Below, in pieces: positions 38,515-47,085 of a DNA stretch of 64,000 nucleotides. Each line of letters starts with the position of its first letter. Position 1 is the stretch's first letter. The position numbers were made by a program, and so were the translations under genes. This DNA is from Sodalis ligni (GTDB lineage Bacteria; Pseudomonadota; Gammaproteobacteria; Enterobacterales; Enterobacteriaceae), in NCBI RefSeq assembly GCF_016865525.2, contig NZ_CP075169.1:3720337-3784336 (forward strand), written 5' to 3'. The notes below the pieces were generated by a model. The model saw only the letters and a list, made by a program, of their open reading frames with translations. It searched no databases and had not been told where the DNA came from.

Positions 38515-39636
38515 ATGAAAGAAGTCAGAATTGGATTAGTGGGTACGGGTTATATTGGCCGTTGCCATGCAATTGCCTATGCCCAGGCTCCCACTGTTTT
38601 TCCGTTAAAAGGAATAATAGTCAAAGAAATGCTGGCGGAAATAAATGAAGACCTGGCGGAAAAAAAAGCAAAGGACTTTGGCTTCACGCGTTTTACAGCT
38701 GACTGGCATCAGTTGGTAAGCGATCCGCGCATTGATGTCGTTGATATTTGTGTGCCCAACTTTCTTCATAAAGAGGTCGCTATTGAAGCCATCAAGCATG
38801 GCAAACATGTCTATAGCGAAAAGCCTTTGGCGCTGACTGCGGCCGACGCCGCTGAGATGGTTGCAGCCGCCAAAAAAGCCAACGTCAAGACGCTGGTGGG
38901 TTTTAATTATATGAAAAACCCGGCGGCACAGCTCGCCAGGCAGATCATAGAAAATGGTGAAATTGGCGAAATAGTGCATTTTTACGGGACGCATAACGAG
39001 GATTATTTAGCCAGCCCGCAGACGCCCATTGATTGGCATTGCAAGAGAGCATTAGCCGGCCTGGGCGCTCTGGGGGATCTTGCGGCGCACATTGTTAATA
39101 TGGCTCATTACCTTATCGGCAATATCCGTGAGGTTGCCGGCGATATGCAAACTGTTATCGCTGAACGCCCCGATCCTCAAGCTCCGTCTAAACGGGCCAA
39201 AGTGGAAAATGAGGACCAAGCGAGCGCGTTAATCCGTTTTGAGTCCGGTGTCATGGGCGTGATTGAAACATCACGGATCGCCAGCGGGTGCAAGATGGGA
39301 TTAACGTATGTGGTCACCGGAACGAAGGGATCGATTACCTATACGCAGGAGAGAATGGCTGAATTAAAACTATATCGGCATGATGAGCCCGTGGAAAGGC
39401 AGGGTTTCAAAACAATCTTGGTCGGACCTTCACATCCTGACTATGCCCCTTTCTGTGTCTCTGCCGGGCATGGATTTGGTTTTAACGATCAGAAGACGAT
39501 CGAAATCAGGGATTTGATTGATGGTATAGCAGCCGGCGATAAATTGTGGCCCGACTTTGAAGAAGGCTTGCGGGTTTCAAAAGTGCTGGAAGCTATTGCC
39601 CAGTCAGCGCAGGAACGCCGGTGGGTCCAGCTATAG
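38515..39636 (+). CDS. Gfo/Idh/MocA-family NAD(P)-dependent oxidoreductase (inositol-type)
   Basis: Cytoplasmic sugar or cyclitol dehydrogenase of 373 residues. The Rossmann motif is GLVGTGYIGRCH (7-18), the EKP signature with Lys103 is in YSEKPLAL, and the C-terminal part has GALGDLAAHIVNMAHYLIG near 183. GGAG lies 9 bp upstream of ATG 38515. It sits between iolE and an IolT-type transporter, so it may oxidise scyllo- or chiro-inositol or an inositol epimer; it could compensate for the lost iolG. Substrate not decided by sequence. Confidence 0.87.
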   Translation: MKEVRIGLVGTGYIGRCHAIAYAQAPTVFPLKGIIVKEMLAEINEDLAEKKAKDFGFTRFTADWHQLVSDPRIDVVDICVPNFLHKEVAIEAIKHGKHVYSEKPLALTAADAAEMVAAAKKANVKTLVGFNYMKNPAAQLARQIIENGEIGEIVHFYGTHNEDYLASPQTPIDWHCKRALAGLGALGDLAAHIVNMAHYLIGNIREVAGDMQTVIAERPDPQAPSKRAKVENEDQASALIRFESGVMGVIETSRIASGCKMGLTYVVTGTKGSITYTQERMAELKLYRHDEPVERQGFKTILVGPSHPDYAPFCVSAGHGFGFNDQKTIEIRDLIDGIAAGDKLWPDFEEGLRVSKVLEAIAQSAQERRWVQL

Positions 39637-39781
39637 AATTCGATAATGGCGAAGGGGCAAGGGTGAGAAATCAAACCAGTGGTAGCACCGGAATCAATCT
39701 CACTGCTGACTCATATGTATGTAATATAAATTTAATTAAGGAAATAATTAAGAACACTCGACCCCTTCATCACCTTTAATT

Positions 39782-39814
39782 TACCGGCGGCTAAAGATAT
39801 TTTAGCCGCCGGTA
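39782..39814 (+). other. Perfect 14-bp hairpin in leader of the inositol-type transporter
   Basis: TACCGGCGGCTAAA (39782-39795) and TTTAGCCGCCGGTA (39801-39814) flank a 5-nt loop, 25 bp before ATG 39840. There is no T-run, so it is not a normal terminator; it could be an operator, mRNA-stabilising stem or control element for translation. It might also end the upstream transcript. Confidence 0.6.
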
Positions 39815-39839
39815 GAGAATAAAATAAAAAGGTAGAAAA

Positions 39840-41243
39840 ATGACTCTTATCTCTCATATAGATCTCAATATAGACCAAAGAAAACGGCTACACCAAATAA
39901 CGCTCGTTGCTACTTTTGGCGGTTTGCTTTTCGGTTATGACACGGGTGTTATTAATGGTGCTTTCCCTTCCTTAAAGGAAGGTATGGCCCTCACACCGAC
40001 GACAGAAGGCCTCGTCATGAGCGTACTGTTAATCGGGGCCGCTATTGGCAGTATTTGTGGCGGCAAGCTGTCCGATTATTTTGGACGTCGTAAATATCTA
40101 TTATATCTATCCTTTGTTTTCTTTTTCGGCGCCATGATCTCTGCATTATCACCCACGATCACCATCCTATTGATTGCCCGTTTTTTACTTGGTTATGCCG
40201 TAGGGGGAGCATCGGTCACGGCGCCAACATTCATATCTGAAGTTGCGCCGACGGAAATGCGAGGGAAACTCACCGGCTTGAATGAAGTAGCCATTGTCAT
40301 CGGCCAGCTGGCCGCCTTTGCGATCAATGCCATCATTGGCTACGTCTGGGGGCACCTGCCTAACGTTTGGCGATATATGTTAATAGTCCAGGCAATACCC
40401 GCCATGAGTTTGCTTATCGGCATGTGGCGCGCACCGGAAAGCCCCCGCTGGCTGGTGAGTAAAAATCGTAAGGAAGAAGCTTTAGCAATTTTAAAACAAA
40501 TTCGACCCGTAGAAAGAGCAAAAAAGGAATTTGAAGATATCGTAACATTAATTAATATTGAAGCAGAAAAAAAGCTGCATTCCGGAGGATCGCTGTCAAT
40601 TATTCTTAACACGCCCTGGATTTTCAAACTACTCCTGGTTGGTATCGCCTGGGCAGCTTTGCAGCAAACAACCGGGGTGAATGTCATCATGTATTATGGT
40701 ACGGAAATACTGCGAACAGCAGGTTTTTCCGAAAGAACTTCATTAATATGCAATGTGTTAAATGGTGTCTTTTCTGTCGGCGGCATGGTTATTGGGGTGG
40801 TGTTTCTGGTTGACCGGTTTAAGCGCAAGACGCTGATTATTTCTGGTTTCGCCCTTATGGCAACGTTGCATCTTATCATAGCGGGCGTTGACTATTACCT
40901 TACGGGTGATTTGAAAGCCACGGCTATTTGGTTGCTAGGAGCATTATTTGTCGGCGTCATGCAGGGTACCATGGGGTTCCTTACCTGGGTGGTATTGGCT
41001 GAACTTTTCCCACTGAAATTTCGCGGGCTATCAATGGGCATTTCGGTATTTTTTATGTGGATCATGAATGCCATTGTTAGCTATTTATTCCCGGTCCTTC
41101 AGGCCAAACTCGGTTTAGGGCCCGTATTCCTGATCTTTGCGATCATCAACTATCTGGTAATTTTATTTGTCATATTCGCATTACCGGAAACATCAAATAA
41201 ATCATTGGAACAATTAGAAGAAGAGCTGTCTTCTGGCAAGTAA
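39840..41243 (+). CDS. iolT: Sugar porter MFS transporter, myo-inositol type
   Basis: Proton symporter of 467 residues with twelve hydrophobic segments. Sugar-porter signatures are FGGLLFGYDTGVINGAF (28-44), DYFGRRK in loop 2-3, PESPRWL near 198, the LQQTTGVNVIMYYG motif near 275 and PETSNKSLEQLEEEL at the end. This composition is that of IolT/IolF and related inositol or pentose carriers. It lies after iolE and the dehydrogenase and probably imports inositol or an isomer. Intact; a hairpin stands just before the start. Confidence 0.88.
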   Translation: MTLISHIDLNIDQRKRLHQITLVATFGGLLFGYDTGVINGAFPSLKEGMALTPTTEGLVMSVLLIGAAIGSICGGKLSDYFGRRKYLLYLSFVFFFGAMISALSPTITILLIARFLLGYAVGGASVTAPTFISEVAPTEMRGKLTGLNEVAIVIGQLAAFAINAIIGYVWGHLPNVWRYMLIVQAIPAMSLLIGMWRAPESPRWLVSKNRKEEALAILKQIRPVERAKKEFEDIVTLINIEAEKKLHSGGSLSIILNTPWIFKLLLVGIAWAALQQTTGVNVIMYYGTEILRTAGFSERTSLICNVLNGVFSVGGMVIGVVFLVDRFKRKTLIISGFALMATLHLIIAGVDYYLTGDLKATAIWLLGALFVGVMQGTMGFLTWVVLAELFPLKFRGLSMGISVFFMWIMNAIVSYLFPVLQAKLGLGPVFLIFAIINYLVILFVIFALPETSNKSLEQLEEELSSGK

Positions 41244-41295
41244 AAAGGTGCTCTATGCGAAATCAATATAAATTATATCGTAAAGGAGACAGATT

Positions 41296-41725
41296 ATGAT
41301 AGACAATGTTTCAATCGATAACCTTCACTTAGGTTGTCAAGCCAAAAACAAAGCTGAAGTCTTGTATATGGTGGCGAGGATTTTTGGAAAAGGGATACGT
41401 AAACCAGGCCTGCGCTGCTTTTCTCAACGAAAGAGAGCAACAGGTATCGACGTTCTTAGGGAATGGTATTACCCTTCCTCATCTGCCAAAATCGGCCAAT
41501 AATATCATTATCAAAAAAGGCGTTGAGATTTTTCAATTTCCGGATGGCGTCATCTGGGACAGAAACAATGTCATGTTTATCGCTATTGGTGTTATTGCTA
41601 AAGAAAAGGAGCATATAGATGTGCTAAAACAAGTCGCATCGATTTTTAGTGATGAGATCATAGCAAATGCATTATCACTCATCTCAAATAAAGAGGATTT
41701 TCTTCGAGTGCTAAATCGAGGATAG
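41296..41725 (+). pseudogene. PTS EIIA domain protein (mannitol/fructose type), frameshifted
   Basis: From ATG 41296 (AAAGGAG 8 bp before) the frame gives SIDNLHLGCQAKNKAEVLYM then derails. From about 41384 the next frame gives EKGYVNQACAAFLNEREQ and STFLGNGITLPH, with the phosphorylated histidine, to TAG 41725. The break is at the T-run 41381-41385; removing one T or adding two joins the halves into a protein of about 143 residues. No EIIB or EIIC is nearby, so it was an orphan EIIA that may have regulated the adjacent transporter rather than carried sugar. Confidence 0.85.
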
Positions 41726-41748
41726 GTGTAATTTCAGTTAATCTGCAT

Positions 41749-41786
41749 ACTCATAGATACCGACCCGTACCCCGGTATCTATGAGT
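41749..41786 (+). terminator. Long perfect inverted repeat, probable terminator
   Basis: ACTCATAGATACCG (41749-41762) pairs perfectly with CGGTATCTATGAGT (41773-41786) over a 10-nt loop; TTTTT follows 8 nt later. It lies 24 bp after the EIIA remnant and faces the convergent protease-nuclease gene. The delayed T-run makes terminator function likely but not sure. Confidence 0.55.
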
Positions 41787-41985
41787 AGACCTCTTTTTAT
41801 CCCTCGAATTCCCATTTGTTTGCCCTACTTATCCTAAACCGGCCCTGGCGCGGGCGATTGCCGTCGGTTACCTAACCACTGGCCCGTGCAATGAAATGCC
41901 AGTCCATGATTAAGCGCTCTGCCAGCGCGTCAGGATTATCATTTTTTTTAGCAGCAGCGTATTAGTGTCTTGACCGCCGTTGTCG

Positions 41986-43899
41986 TTAAAAAACGATCTC
42001 GGCGCTGGAACTGATTTCCACTATGGTCCTCGGCTCGCGCATAAAAGCGTTGATACCCTGCCCGGTAGTCGCCATTTCGGGATGCTGCATGACATCAACC
42101 GCCCCATAGGCGGAGAAGTCGAGCGCGGTTCGTGCAGTGAGCTGCGGCACGCTGACCTGGTAGATGCGAAAAGGGTCCAGGTCGAGGCTTTCAAGATCGT
42201 TTAGCAGATTGTCTTGCGAAAGAACGAAAGCCGAGCAGCGCAATTGACCATCACCGGCCCGATAAGCGATCAGCTTCTAGAAGGCGCGAGGTAAGCGTAT
42301 CTCGCGGTAGGCGGGATCTTCGTTGCCGAATACCGGCCCGCCAAGGATGGCAAGCTTGAGGTCCTGCACATCCGCCTGATCAAAAACCAGGTTCTCCAGC
42401 TCACCCCACAGGCCCTTGCGGGACGACTGGTTAAAGCGTTGGTGCTGGGGCGTAATGTTGGTGAAATAGAAGGAATCCTTGTTTGCCTGCCTTGCCTCTT
42501 CAATATCGCCCCAGCAGAGATCCGCCCGGCGGGCGATATGCCCGCGATCAAGCCGGTTGTCCTTGTACAGCTCATCTCCAATCTGATATTTGCCGTCGAT
42601 GCGCGGATCAAGCGCAAACCCTAGCCTGGGAAGCTTGACCATCCGCGAGCCATCAATATTCCAGGCCACATAGCGCGCCATGCGGCGGGCAGCGCTGAGG
42701 CACACCGAAAAATGGGTATAGGGGAGGGTCTGGCCGCGGCCGAAATTCACCGCGTCGCGCTTGAAGGCCGTTGAAAGCCCTGGTTCCGGAGCAGGTATTC
42801 CGAGAAAATCAGGATCATAGCCGTTTCGGACAACGGCCGTTTCAATAAAAGGCAAATTTTTCGCATCAGAATGAGGCGGCGTAAGCAAGAAGTCGAGCTT
42901 CTTCTGTACTGATGCCGGATAGCACGCGAGCGCGTACTCGTCCGGATTGCCGTCGGCGTTGCCGGCGAAGTGCAATCCCGCGAAGATATCGGTCGGCTTG
43001 CCATTCTCGGCGATAAGCCAGGCCGAGCCGGAATCGCCGCCCTTGCTGATACCGCCATCCGAGGAAGGATGAGCCGGATCGGGGCCGATTTCAAAGCCGC
43101 CGATCGCCTGCTCGCCCTTGGGAAGGCCATAATTGATACGCGCCATTACATCAATGCGGCGAACCTTGCCATAGGTCACCCCGGTGGTGCGCCCCGACTT
43201 GACGACCGGATCGCCGAGCTCGACTTGCGCCATGCGGGTAGGCATCACATCCAGCTCCAAAACCGAAGCGTCATACCCGCGCAGGCGGATTCCGGCAAGG
43301 GCGCAATCCCCAGCCGGCCCCAGATGACTGCGCAGGAGTTCGCCGGCCACGTTGCGGGCAGTGTTGTTGTCGTCGAAAGGCCCTGGTTGAACGATGGTGC
43401 CGCCGACCTGACCGGCATTCCCGTGCAGGACATGCCAGTTCGACAGAATGACGGGCATGCCGGTGGAGCGATCGTAGACAATCAAACCGATCGTCCCCGC
43501 CGTCCCCGCCAGATGAGAAACGCTGACGCCCGGACGGATGGGATCGATGCGTTCCCGGCGCGCATCCATTTGTTCCGGCTTGACGAGCTTGAACGAAGGA
43601 TCATAAGAACGCTGTATTACGTCGGTGGGTATCATAACGCCTTCGATTTCGATAGCCTGCGGAATCGGCAGGCTACCGAGGGACTGTAGGGCGGATTCGC
43701 CCTTCGCTCCGACGGTGAATTGAATGCAAACGGGTCCATCCCCATTCTTCAAGCCAATGCCAACGGACGTGATATTGGGATCCTTGAGGTAGTCGGCGCC
43801 CTTTGCCCGTATGTGCCTGCGCAGGGCTTCTAGATCCGGCCCCGGCGATCCGCCTTTCTTGCGTGATGATTTAGCTTTGGCCATCCGGCGTTCTCCCAT
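41986..43899 (-). pseudogene. Trypsin-like protease / DNA-RNA non-specific endonuclease fusion, interrupted by amber TAG
   Basis: Starts at ATG 43899 (GGGAGG 8 bp before). A lysine- and arginine-rich N-terminus of about 20 residues and an unassigned segment precede a trypsin-like domain with all three catalytic residues: His156 (LSNWHVLHG), Asp198 (PAGDCALAG) and Ser290 (GGDSGSA). After a linker comes a beta-beta-alpha-metal nuclease domain with the DRGH motif (451-454), then FTNITPQHQRFNQ and WGELE. TAG at 42277-42279 follows PRAF after 540 residues. The same frame continues with KLIAYRAGDGQLRCSAF to 41986, giving about 637 codons. NUC-domain proteins usually have Trp there, so TGG to TAG is likely. 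No signal peptide is evident. Role unknown; defence or toxin activity is a guess. Confidence 0.85.
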
Positions 43900-44455
43900 G
43901 ATTATAACCTCCCTGTATTGAATACCCTCATTACGCCATCATCGCGGAACACTGCCCCCATTGGCAACCCCGAACTGTTCCATTTTGAATTTTGCGAATC
44001 ACCCCTTATTCATGAACAATCGTCCGCCCCTGCATTGCCCGGCCGGAGACCCGGCGCAAGCTTGGTTATCTAATTTACTAAATAATATAAAATAGAAGAG
44101 TATATGCTGATGGCGATTATGGTGCGGTGGCGGCTGATAAGGTTGCAAAAGAACCAAATCCTCAGCGGAGGTATTTTCCGCCCATATTAGCGGGCGCCAT
44201 AATATATCGGCAAGGCCGGCCGCGGCCAAGGTACTTTCAAGAGTATGGGCTGACCATTAGTAATATTCTGCCGTCTTTACCCTATATTCCCGCACGTGTC
44301 CCCGCAGCGAACCGCTATTAAAACGGGCTATCGCATCTTTAGATGGCGGACCGTGCTTTCAATTATTCCTTGGCGCTGTGCCGGCGGGTATGAATTCGCA
44401 GGATAACGTGCTATTTCAGGTAGATGTTGCTTTTATTTATGATAGACCGCACAAT

Positions 44456-44476
44456 CATATGTTCAACTAACGTTCA
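44456..44476 (+). promoter_or_regulatory. TGTTCA-type repeat, copy 1 (upstream of polyol MFS)
   Basis: CATATGTTCA followed 11 bp on by ACGTTCA. It belongs to the same motif family as the exact 14-bp element at 44635-44648 and its reverse complement before the RpiB-like gene. Confidence 0.45.
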
Positions 44477-44515
44477 TTTATTACATAATATTTCTCTCAG
44501 CCCGCCTCTCAAGAA

Positions 44516-44531
44516 AGCGATATAAATCACA
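44516..44531 (+). promoter_or_regulatory. CRP-like site upstream of polyol MFS
   Basis: AGCGATATAAATCACA matches TGTGA-N6-TCACA at eight of ten fixed positions. It lies between two TGTTCA-type sites about 350 bp before the MFS start. A weak call. Confidence 0.3.
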
Positions 44532-44634
44532 TTTTAGAAAGTTAATAGCGTTACTTGTCTATTTTATAACGGGTTCATGCGCTAAATCACACTTTCAAAT
44601 CTTCACTGTGGACAACAAAGGCGATTAAGTGGAT

Positions 44635-44648
44635 TGTTCATATGTTCA
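44635..44648 (+). promoter_or_regulatory. TGTTCATATGTTCA element upstream of polyol MFS
   Basis: Direct repeat of TGTTCA spaced by 8 bp. Its exact reverse complement TGAACATATGAACA is at 46607-46620, 15 bp before the RpiB-like gene, so a shared regulator is probable. SorC, DeoR or RpiR-type proteins are candidates; a broken RpiR gene lies at 50755-51610. Confidence 0.65.
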
Positions 44649-44879
44649 AGTATATAACTTATGATCAAAAATCTTAACCTTTCATAAAGACGAGAGCGAA
44701 AACATGTACCGAAAGTTTATCACGCCCTTACCAGCGGCCACTCACTGGCCGGGTTCAAAAGGCTGCCGTAGGCCGCACGCCCTATATCACATTCTGCACG
44801 TTCTTCGCCATCCTGGTTTTGCCAGGATATATCGGGTAAACGGGACATTCTTGATGAATAAAGCGGATTGGAGGGTTCT

Positions 44880-46208
44880 ATGCTAGACGGAATGATCAAA
44901 CGGATTGGGCTGTCGCCAAAGCTTATGCTAGGTTATGCCGGCGTGCTGGTATTTATGATGGGCGAAGGATTGGAACAAGGATGGCTTTCACCCTATCTGA
45001 TCAACAAAGGATTGACTATTCAGGAAGCCGCGCTGTTATTCAGTGTTTATGGTCTTTTTGCCGCCATCTCCGCCTGGTTTTCCGGTGTATTGGCGGAAAT
45101 CTTTGGCGCGCGCCGGACCATGCTCACCGGGTTTATACTATTCATCATCGGTTCGGTCTTTTTTCTGTCGTTCGGCCTGCCCAGCAATAATCTTTCTATC
45201 ATGATCCCCACTTACGCGCTGCGCGGTTTGGGATATCCGTTATTTGCCTATGGTTTCCTGGTATGGGTTGCCTATGAGGCGCCGCCGAAAAAATTGGGTT
45301 CGGCGGTGGGAATTTTCTGGTTCGTTTACAGCGGCGGGCTGAGCGTGCTGGGGGTACTTTACTCCAGTATTGTATTACCGTACCTGGGGGAGATTCACAC
45401 TCTCTGGAGCGCGCTGGCATTCGTCGCGATCGGCGCGATGATTGCTTTATTGTTGAATCGGGGCGAGAGCCATGCCGGTAAAGACAGCCATCAGGAAAAA
45501 ACGTCGATAAAGTATGTGCTCAAAGGCATCACCATCGCCTTTGAAAACCCGAAAATTGGCCTGGGAGGCATTGTCCGTACCATAAATACCTCGGCGGCCT
45601 ATGGCTTTGTGGTATTTATGCCGATGTACATGATGGAGATCGGTTTTACCCGCGCCAATTGGTTACAAATGTATGCGGCTTTATGGACGATGAATATCAT
45701 CTTCAATCTTATCTTCGGCATTATCAGCGATCGCCTGGGCTGGCGTAATGTCGTGATGTGGTTTGGCTGTGCCGGTTGTGCCATCACCACGCTGATGTTT
45801 TATTATATCCCGCATTTCCTGGGGCCAAACTATCTTCTCACCGTCATTTCCGCCGGATTATTCGGTATCTGCCTTGCGGCATTTGTTCCTCTGTCGGCCA
45901 TTATGCCTTCACTGGCGCCGGAGAATAAAGGCGCGGCCATGTCGGTACTGAATCTGGGCGCCGGGCTGAGTACGTTTGTCGGTCCTGCCGTGGTGGGACT
46001 CTTTATCGGTAGCTTAGGCAGCGGCGGCGTTATCTGGATTTATACCGGCCTATACCTCTTTGCCGGCGCATTGATGAAATTTATTACCTTGCCAAAAGCG
46101 CTCCCGGAAACGACAAAAATTGTTTATACCACCGCCGAAAACAACGTCCGGCCGAGGGTGAACAATAATGAGGGAGGACTTATAGTCAACCAGCAATCTG
46201 AACACTAA
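44880..46208 (+). CDS. MFS transporter, polyol permease type (ribitol/arabinitol RbtT/DalT-like)
   Basis: Carrier of 442 residues from ATG 44880; GGAGGG lies just before, inside a longer possible frame from 44868. Twelve hydrophobic segments; marks include GEGLEQGWLSPYLINKGLT near 28, AEIFGARRTMLTGF near 68 and ALRGLGYPLFAYGFLVWVA near 113. The pattern fits pentitol permeases. Downstream, after a gap of about 430 bp, come an RpiB-like isomerase, transaldolase and a transketolase stub, which suit pentitol or tetritol breakdown into the pentose phosphate pool. Intact. Confidence 0.85.
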   Translation: MLDGMIKRIGLSPKLMLGYAGVLVFMMGEGLEQGWLSPYLINKGLTIQEAALLFSVYGLFAAISAWFSGVLAEIFGARRTMLTGFILFIIGSVFFLSFGLPSNNLSIMIPTYALRGLGYPLFAYGFLVWVAYEAPPKKLGSAVGIFWFVYSGGLSVLGVLYSSIVLPYLGEIHTLWSALAFVAIGAMIALLLNRGESHAGKDSHQEKTSIKYVLKGITIAFENPKIGLGGIVRTINTSAAYGFVVFMPMYMMEIGFTRANWLQMYAALWTMNIIFNLIFGIISDRLGWRNVVMWFGCAGCAITTLMFYYIPHFLGPNYLLTVISAGLFGICLAAFVPLSAIMPSLAPENKGAAMSVLNLGAGLSTFVGPAVVGLFIGSLGSGGVIWIYTGLYLFAGALMKFITLPKALPETTKIVYTTAENNVRPRVNNNEGGLIVNQQSEH

Positions 46209-46409
46209 ATGGGTTGTCCCCCCCCCTTAAGTCACCGCCCCCTATTCATGAGGTAGCGGTGGCGGCATAGCATCCGGGCAGGCCTTTACATATCCCAGAA
46301 TCGCGTCTTCAACCATATGGTCTGGATCGTTGATAATTCTATTCATTACGGCCTCGTCTTCTCTAAAGTAAGAAATTATTGAATGGTATAACCACCGCTG
46401 ACAATCAAC

Positions 46410-46620
46410 CATATGAACAACTATAAAACATATGAACAGTCAAATTATTGACAAAGACTGCCACGCCTACGGATAAATTTCGCTACACACCTCGAACCTT
46501 TTCTCCTGGTCGCTTAAAAATAGCGATATACCCCGCATAATGGCAATTTCTCTAAAAGAATGGCTCGCAAATGGCAAAAGAAACGATGTATCATAAGAAC
46601 ACATTATGAACATATGAACA
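46410..46620 (-). promoter_or_regulatory. Cluster of TGAACA-type sites upstream of RpiB-like gene
   Basis: CATATGAACA occurs ending at 46419 and again ending at 46438, a related AAGAACA near 46594-46600, and TGAACATATGAACA at 46607-46620. The last is the exact inverse of 44635-44648. The remainder of the gap 46209-46634 holds no gene I can see. Confidence 0.6.
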
Positions 46621-46634
46621 TATGAGAGAACGAT

Positions 46635-47085
46635 ATGAAAACCTCGATTGCCATCGGCTGTGACGACGCCGCCGTGGAACTTAAGCTTCTTTGAAGGAAT
46701 TCCTTAAAACAAAGGAATAGAGGTGGTTGACTACAACATCCCCCAAGGAAGCGACTATCCGGATATCGCGTTTCAAGTCGCGCTGGCTATTAAGGAAGGC
46801 AAACATCAGCGCGGCATTCTGCTGTGCGGTACCGGCATCGGCATGAGCATCGTGGCGAATAAAGTCCCCGGTATCCGCGCCGCACAATGTTATGACACCT
46901 ACTCCGCACAACGGGCCCGCAAGAGCAATAACGCGCAAATCATTACTCTCGGTGCGCGGGTAACCGGACCGGAACTGGCAAAAACCATCATCGAAGCCTG
47001 GCTGGAATCCGAGTTCGCCGGTGGCGGTTCAGCCCCCAAAGTAGAAAAAATCGGCTACTACGAACGCCTCGCCGGCCGGAACTGA
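46635..47085 (+). pseudogene. RpiB/LacAB-family sugar-phosphate isomerase, two frameshifts
   Basis: From ATG 46635 the frame reads SIAIGCDDAAVELKL and stops; KEFLKTK is in a second frame and EVVDYNIPQGSDYPDIAF to the end in a third. Two single-base deletions, near 46686-46690 and at the A-run 46711-46713, explain it. The active-site cysteine region LLCGTGIGMSI, and the tail with KSNNAQIITLGARVTGPELA, mark a ribose-5-phosphate isomerase B or tetrulose/pentulose-phosphate isomerase of about 150 residues. GTG 46723 could begin a shorter, inactive protein. It leads the operon with transaldolase. Confidence 0.87.

Follow-up and report, generated by a model that had tools for sequence, protein, structure and literature searches.

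What does a gene that joins a serine protease to a nuclease do in a bacterium, and does it still work where a stop codon interrupts it? The question is raised by positions 41986–43899 (reverse strand) of a 64,000-nt stretch of Sodalis ligni contig NZ_CP075169.1, referred to below as the window; the genome is one contig of 6.44 Mb. In the reading favoured here, with a probability of roughly 55%, the locus holds a solitary, probably acquired two-domain gene, which encodes a predicted NAL1-type serine protease and a predicted EndoG/NucA-type nuclease and is broken in this strain, while its uninterrupted relatives likely act as intracellular protease-switched effectors of self-destruction or conflict.

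Structure of the gene

The frame (43899–41986) comprises 637 codons followed by a terminal stop at 41988–41986. The ORF 43899..42277 (reverse strand) covers 540 amino acids (aa) and ends at an in-frame TAG. The coordinates, frame, triad positions, DRGH motif and TAG given by a first-pass annotation, made from the letters alone, were all confirmed in the sequence. The gene is divided as follows.

41986..43899, reverse strand: full reading frame of the protease-nuclease gene with one internal stop, from frame and translation; one TAG inside it was also given by the profile search of the genome
42877..43899, reverse strand: protease half, residues 1–341, with a basic tail, an N-terminal domain (about 20–118) and a predicted PA-fold serine protease (about 119–341; H156, D198, S290)
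42826..42876, reverse strand: linker, approximately residues 342–358, partly modelled as disordered (predicted local distance difference test, pLDDT, below 50 at 344–354 in the model of the relative P0001)
41989..42825, reverse strand: EndoG/NucA-type nuclease module, residues 359–637 (DRGH 451–454, N481, N490, E502), broken at codon 541
42277..42279, reverse strand: in-frame TAG, codon 541, aromatic (W, F or Y) in relatives, from sequence and alignment

Of 7996 candidates scored in a search with the 540-aa piece, 1815 proteins had E ≤ 1e-3. The 120 matches listed, 118 of them 600–675 aa long and two shorter (556 and 583 aa), were aligned with 19 locus translations. In all 139 relatives H156, D198, S290, D451, G453, H454, N481, N490, E502 and K542 are invariant; the catalytic residues of both domains are among them.

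Protease half

The first structure model (35-row alignment, pLDDT 72.8) was poor in the nuclease, and a model of P0001, the nearest and near-identical relative, was used in its place. It predicts a PA-fold protease and an EndoG/NucA-type nuclease in one protein, in agreement with the fusion proposed by the first-pass annotation, and the triad is located on the chymotrypsin-like (PA-clan) fold. Rice NAL1 (NARROW LEAF 1; PDB 8pmi, 7y77, 8has and others) is the best structural match of the predicted model (residues 16–344), clearly better than bare proteases. The resemblance concerns the N-terminal domain and the protease arrangement, whereas NAL1 is a plant protein lacking a nuclease. According to one report (PMC12915138), rice and maize NAL1 degrade TOPLESS-type corepressors.

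The half had been annotated as a trypsin-like protease. Triad and fold bear out a protease, but neither the window piece nor P0001 is matched by any Pfam trypsin model. PF13365 (Trypsin_2) gives no match to P0001 at E ≤ 0.1, and it matches six nuclease fusions of another type at 9.7e-12 to 2.2e-20. Trypsin has Asp six residues before the catalytic Ser; this position is Ile, Val or Leu in 139/139 relatives, and "trypsin-like" should therefore be read as describing the fold only, not trypsin specificity. A hydrophobic N-terminal segment is found in 0/139 relatives, from which a cytoplasmic location is predicted; the N-terminal tail is basic.

Nuclease half

The domain search of the joined 637-codon product found Endonuclease_NS (PF01223) across the TAG, at profile positions 12–217 of 223 (E 5.7e-39, 135.6 bits against a cut-off of 23). 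The conserved end of the nuclease thus continues past the stop, as had been proposed. The 540-aa piece alone matches positions 12–165 (E 1.6e-32), and the 96-aa tail on its own has no profile match. The gene is the sole PF01223 match of the genome. EndoG, Anabaena NucA and Serratia nuclease are stand-alone enzymes, exported or organellar. The nuclease described here has the same catalytic residues and fold, but is tethered to a protease without a hydrophobic N-terminal segment.

Distribution of relatives

Fusions of the window type, with a predicted NAL1-like protease half and the nuclease, are termed type i. The nearest relatives include proteins named from Sodalis, Brenneria, Pantoea and a metagenome-assembled genome (MAG) of Sphingobium, and more distant ones are Rhizobium, Agrobacterium and Roseobacter-group proteins. 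A peptide-pattern scan of 84,980 species genomes gave 174 matching stretches, 160 of which encode a type-i relative. The best 80 of these 160, examined as type-i loci, include alphaproteobacteria, actinobacteria, Bacteroidota, acidobacteria, Chloroflexi, a Desulfobacca MAG and two Nitrosocosmicus MAGs. In the Nitrosocosmicus MAGs, which are archaeal, the fusion gene (L078, 4272–6176; L084, 7740–9650) has a codon-position guanine-cytosine (GC) content resembling that of the neighbours; in L078 an M6 peptidase gene adjoins it. No match to the gene was found in the E. coli collection.

Phage or viral origin was considered and rejected: there is one weak viral match, to the protease only, and three phage matches, to the nuclease only. 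The family could not be regarded as plasmid-borne either, since of 85 matching plasmid records 5 match over at least 80% of the protein. A Cas7 match of the relative P0014 is at chance level (E 0.055 and 0.21).

Two protease types on one nuclease

In a sample of 398 genomes from the phylum, 53 of which gave some match, full-length type i occurs in the window's own genome only. The same sample has proteins in which the nuclease module stands by itself, is combined with a lamin-tail domain or is joined to a Trypsin_2 protease. Nuclease followed by the lamin-tail domain PF00932 was seen in two loci of other proteobacteria (L177 above the cut-off, L175 below). A search with one Trypsin_2-type fusion gave 1774 proteins at E ≤ 1e-3, and 119 of the 120 listed carry both PF13365 and PF01223.

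Alignment of the two types by hhalign joins the nucleases over 265 columns (probability 100, E 1e-63) and the proteases over 29 columns (probability 89.7). BLASTP from the type-i protease half at E ≤ 1e-3 finds one of the 120 listed Trypsin_2-type proteins. BLASTP of P0001 against the Trypsin_2-type fusion P0126 speaks against a clean split, as it aligns through both halves (30% identity, E 9e-47); the GLHFAG stretch after the catalytic Ser is common to the two proteins. In the nuclease tree (82 rows, leaving out L183, one solo nuclease and three Trypsin_2-type rows) type i falls into a single group (100/99), the Trypsin_2 fusions into two (98/99 and 98/91), with a weak or unsupported root. 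Because of this root, and because BLASTP joins the types through both halves, the tree does not settle between a single ancient fusion and independent fusions.

Comparison with published systems

The first-pass annotation knew of no characterised protein with this architecture. This claim does not hold, as trypsin-NucA fusions were catalogued in 2020 (PMC7159879) and mutants of LypC were tested in 2026 (PMC13236601), so that the architecture is already known and partly characterised. In Kaur et al. (eLife 2020, PMC7159879), NucA-trypsin conflict systems ("System 3"), fusions included, are defined, and a proteolytic cascade deploying the nuclease is predicted for them; they are named again in 2021 in the same line of work (PMC8195603). 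As described there, System 3 is mostly alphaproteobacterial, has a predicted conflict role and combines a serine peptidase with Endonuclease_NS, sometimes in one polypeptide. It differs in forming operons with peptidase paralogues, some subsets of which also contain EAD1 proteins or STAND NTPases, whereas type i is a lone gene with a predicted NAL1-type protease. Type i thus resembles it by architecture only: recurrent EAD1, STAND or peptidase partners are absent among 83 neighbours scanned (see below). One Trypsin_2 fusion locus (L195, 6528–13054) looks much like the System 3 operons; after the fusion come a 255-aa protein, whose lysozyme-like matches are below threshold, and two more Trypsin_2 proteins.

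LypC, a part of LypABC in Caulobacter crescentus (Banks et al., Nat Microbiol 2026, PMC13236601), has an N-terminal trypsin-like peptidase, a flexible linker and a C-terminal endonuclease, and is of similar length. Its catalytic serine is essential for lysis linked to a gene transfer agent, its nuclease residues H471 and N505 are dispensable for lysis, and deletion of the nuclease domain destabilises it. Unlike the window gene, which has no such neighbours, LypC belongs to a CARD-NLR-like tripartite operon with LypA (CARD-peptidase-ATPase) and LypB (NLR-like). A search for LypC-like operons at class level gave a match in 26 of 385 genomes. The published His471-Asn505 spacing of 34 is found in 21/120 listed Trypsin_2-type and 2/120 listed type-i proteins, and all 120 listed type-i proteins have Asn at a spacing of 36.

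Type i could, as a possible but unlikely alternative, be a solitary offshoot of the LypC/NucA-trypsin systems, still working with an NLR-like regulator encoded elsewhere, with the protease as executor and the nuclease structural or accessory. The clear homology of the nuclease modules, the BLASTP alignment through both halves with the common GLHFAG, and the dependence of LypC on its serine rather than on nuclease residues, together with its instability without the nuclease domain, are consistent with such a descent. The short alignment of the protease halves, the single Trypsin_2-type protein found by BLASTP, the failure of PF13365 to match P0001, the separate position of type i in the nuclease tree and the lack of a recurrent neighbour family argue against it. 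A NAL1-type protease joined to a nuclease or to bacterial conflict was found in no paper of the literature searched, which left out preprints and most subscription papers; the predicted NAL1-type, partnerless type is, as far as these searches go, the new part.

Gene neighbourhoods

Neighbours were scanned in 42 of the 80 loci (83 ORFs of 150 codons or more, in most cases the closest one on either side), after filtering by codon-position GC against shadow ORFs of GC-rich genomes, some of which may remain. No Pfam family occurs in more than 3 of the 83 neighbours (25 of 134 families shown). The gene was annotated as standing alone, and the survey of homologues agrees: the 42 loci show no fixed partner. 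In the window it is flanked by transporter genes, and its copy in a congeneric genome (G002) by genes for an MFS protein, a cyclase and one unassigned protein. Individual neighbours in other genomes include tyrosinase-like proteins, a haem peroxidase, a subtilase and an M6 peptidase.

In Rhizobium anhuiense (L014; 7388–9013, 11913–14333) an uninterrupted homologue has a fused AriAB gene of the PARIS defence system (E 1.4e-100) on one side and, on the other, a gene on the same strand for a patatin-like phospholipase. On a Streptomyces canus plasmid (L234, 10451–37520) a homologue is flanked by a patatin-like gene on one side and a baseplate-J/AHH/LysM tail-like cluster on the other, in which Pfam matches were obtained for baseplate J and AHH only; relatives of three proteins from the cluster occur close to the Arthrobacter homologue (L041). 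A link to contractile injection or phage-tail clusters is not general, since one of the 80 other loci (L041) has genes of this cluster.

As many Endonuclease_NS enzymes are secreted, one could consider a degradative or nutritional enzyme acting on protein-nucleic-acid complexes and released by lysis or another route; neighbours elsewhere (subtilase, astacin, M6 and papain-type peptidases, haem peroxidase, PhoD, patatin and RTX proteins) would suit it. This explanation is doubtful, as the relatives lack a hydrophobic N-terminal segment and have a basic tail, and the distribution is patchy.

The internal stop

The first-pass annotation saw the TAG as replacing Trp, and the relatives agree, with W in 132 of 139, F in 4 and Y in 3. 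Homologues all ending at this position would have refuted the first-pass reading; the opposite was found, as 138/139 continue at least 20 residues beyond it. P0001 and the window frame disagree at 5 positions; one of these is the stop, and a single other one lies beyond the TAG. Against the G002 gene, nonsynonymous (dN) and synonymous (dS) divergence are 0.048 and 0.395 before the stop and 0.092 and 0.442 after it, and this purifying selection on both sides points to a recent break. A broken but recently intact frame is thus supported.

The truncated product would likely keep the protease and lose about one quarter of the nuclease profile, for which reason the gene in this strain is probably non-functional. 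Programmed amber recoding was rejected as a likely reading, since none of the 74 tRNA matches in this genome, obtained from 150 scored of 227 first-look candidates, has a CTA anticodon and the relatives have an ordinary aromatic residue. An error of sequencing or assembly at the TAG, or readthrough of it, either of which would leave the gene intact, is very improbable. In its favour, the lesion is single, the frame is otherwise perfect and just one more difference from P0001 follows the TAG; the same lack of a CTA anticodon among the tRNA matches scored stands against it.

Origin of the gene

The gene had also been described as an acquired solitary cassette with AT-rich flanks. The flanks are AT-rich (GC 0.416 and 0.445), but the gene itself (0.586) is near the window mean (0.545), so that the flanks, not the gene, are unusual and the argument from composition is weak. 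Acquisition is supported by a patchy distribution, a non-syntenic site and a LacI remnant. Among five other genomes of the genus the gene is complete in G002 and gives no match in four (one of them, G004, just 83% complete).

41986..43987, no strand assigned: block common to the window and G002, the gene plus about 88 bp upstream (88.3% over 2002 columns)
41878..41949, reverse strand: remnant of a LacI-family regulator gene, its C-terminal end, directly 3' of the cassette (24 residues, 87.5% identity to a congener's whole gene; Pfam PF00356/PF00532 in whole genes)

Beyond the block, none of window positions 39500–47000 aligns with the surrounding 20 kb of G002. The LacI-family gene is whole in G001 and G004; sugar-transporter genes lie near the remnant. 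From the block limits and the remnant it follows that little more than the gene itself was transferred, and that it came to lie within or next to a regulator gene that has been destroyed. It was probably acquired horizontally, judging from these sequence comparisons.

Proposed function and significance

The uninterrupted type-i enzymes are read here as protease-switched self-destruct or conflict effectors. The enzyme would be cytoplasmic and inactive as long as nothing triggers the protease; infection, DNA damage or stress could be such a trigger. The active protease would then cleave host or invader proteins and perhaps its own linker, and the freed or re-oriented nuclease could degrade nucleic acid, leading to cell death or to cutting of the invader genome. 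Sensing and killing would be combined in one protein with no NLR partner, unlike in LypABC. The release of a nuclease by a protease, as first proposed for this gene, is possible; by analogy with LypC, the protease may be the main executor.

Several results weigh against these effector roles. None of the PADLOC or NCBIfam models match P0001 or the window piece, and no PADLOC family occurs in more than 2 of the 83 neighbours. Association with defence genes is anecdotal, with one clear case (L014), and surroundings on a Rhizobium and a Tsukamurella plasmid are ordinary and metabolic. Many hydrolases and metabolic enzymes flank the gene in other genomes, which fits a degradative role too. The dispensable nuclease residues of LypC speak against the nuclease as killer. 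The likeness to NAL1 is by fold only, as the profile searches gave no NAL1 row at E ≤ 0.01 or at E ≤ 10. The P0001 model is a monomer prediction with a predicted template modelling score of 0.56, which does not fix the relative placement of the domains.

In a bolder and rather improbable version, type i is a one-gene suicide or defence device, in which an oligomeric NAL1-like protease cage senses the trigger, cuts the tethers and frees EndoG-like nucleases, and plant NAL1 descends from this bacterial conflict-protease lineage. If true, it would provide a single-polypeptide parallel to caspase-triggered DNA degradation. NAL1 is a regulator of leaf and grain traits and sets leaf width in rice.

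For the family, the proteins described as "trypsin + NucA" split into at least two types, in which one common nuclease module is joined to different proteases. In the Trypsin_2 type there is one case whose operon partners resemble those published for the NucA-trypsin system, and the predicted NAL1-type stands alone, from Proteobacteria to archaeal MAGs. If this lone type is a self-contained cell-death enzyme, it would give a bacterial relative to a plant protease known mainly through crop traits, and would offer a simple, testable model of protease-controlled killing by a nuclease.
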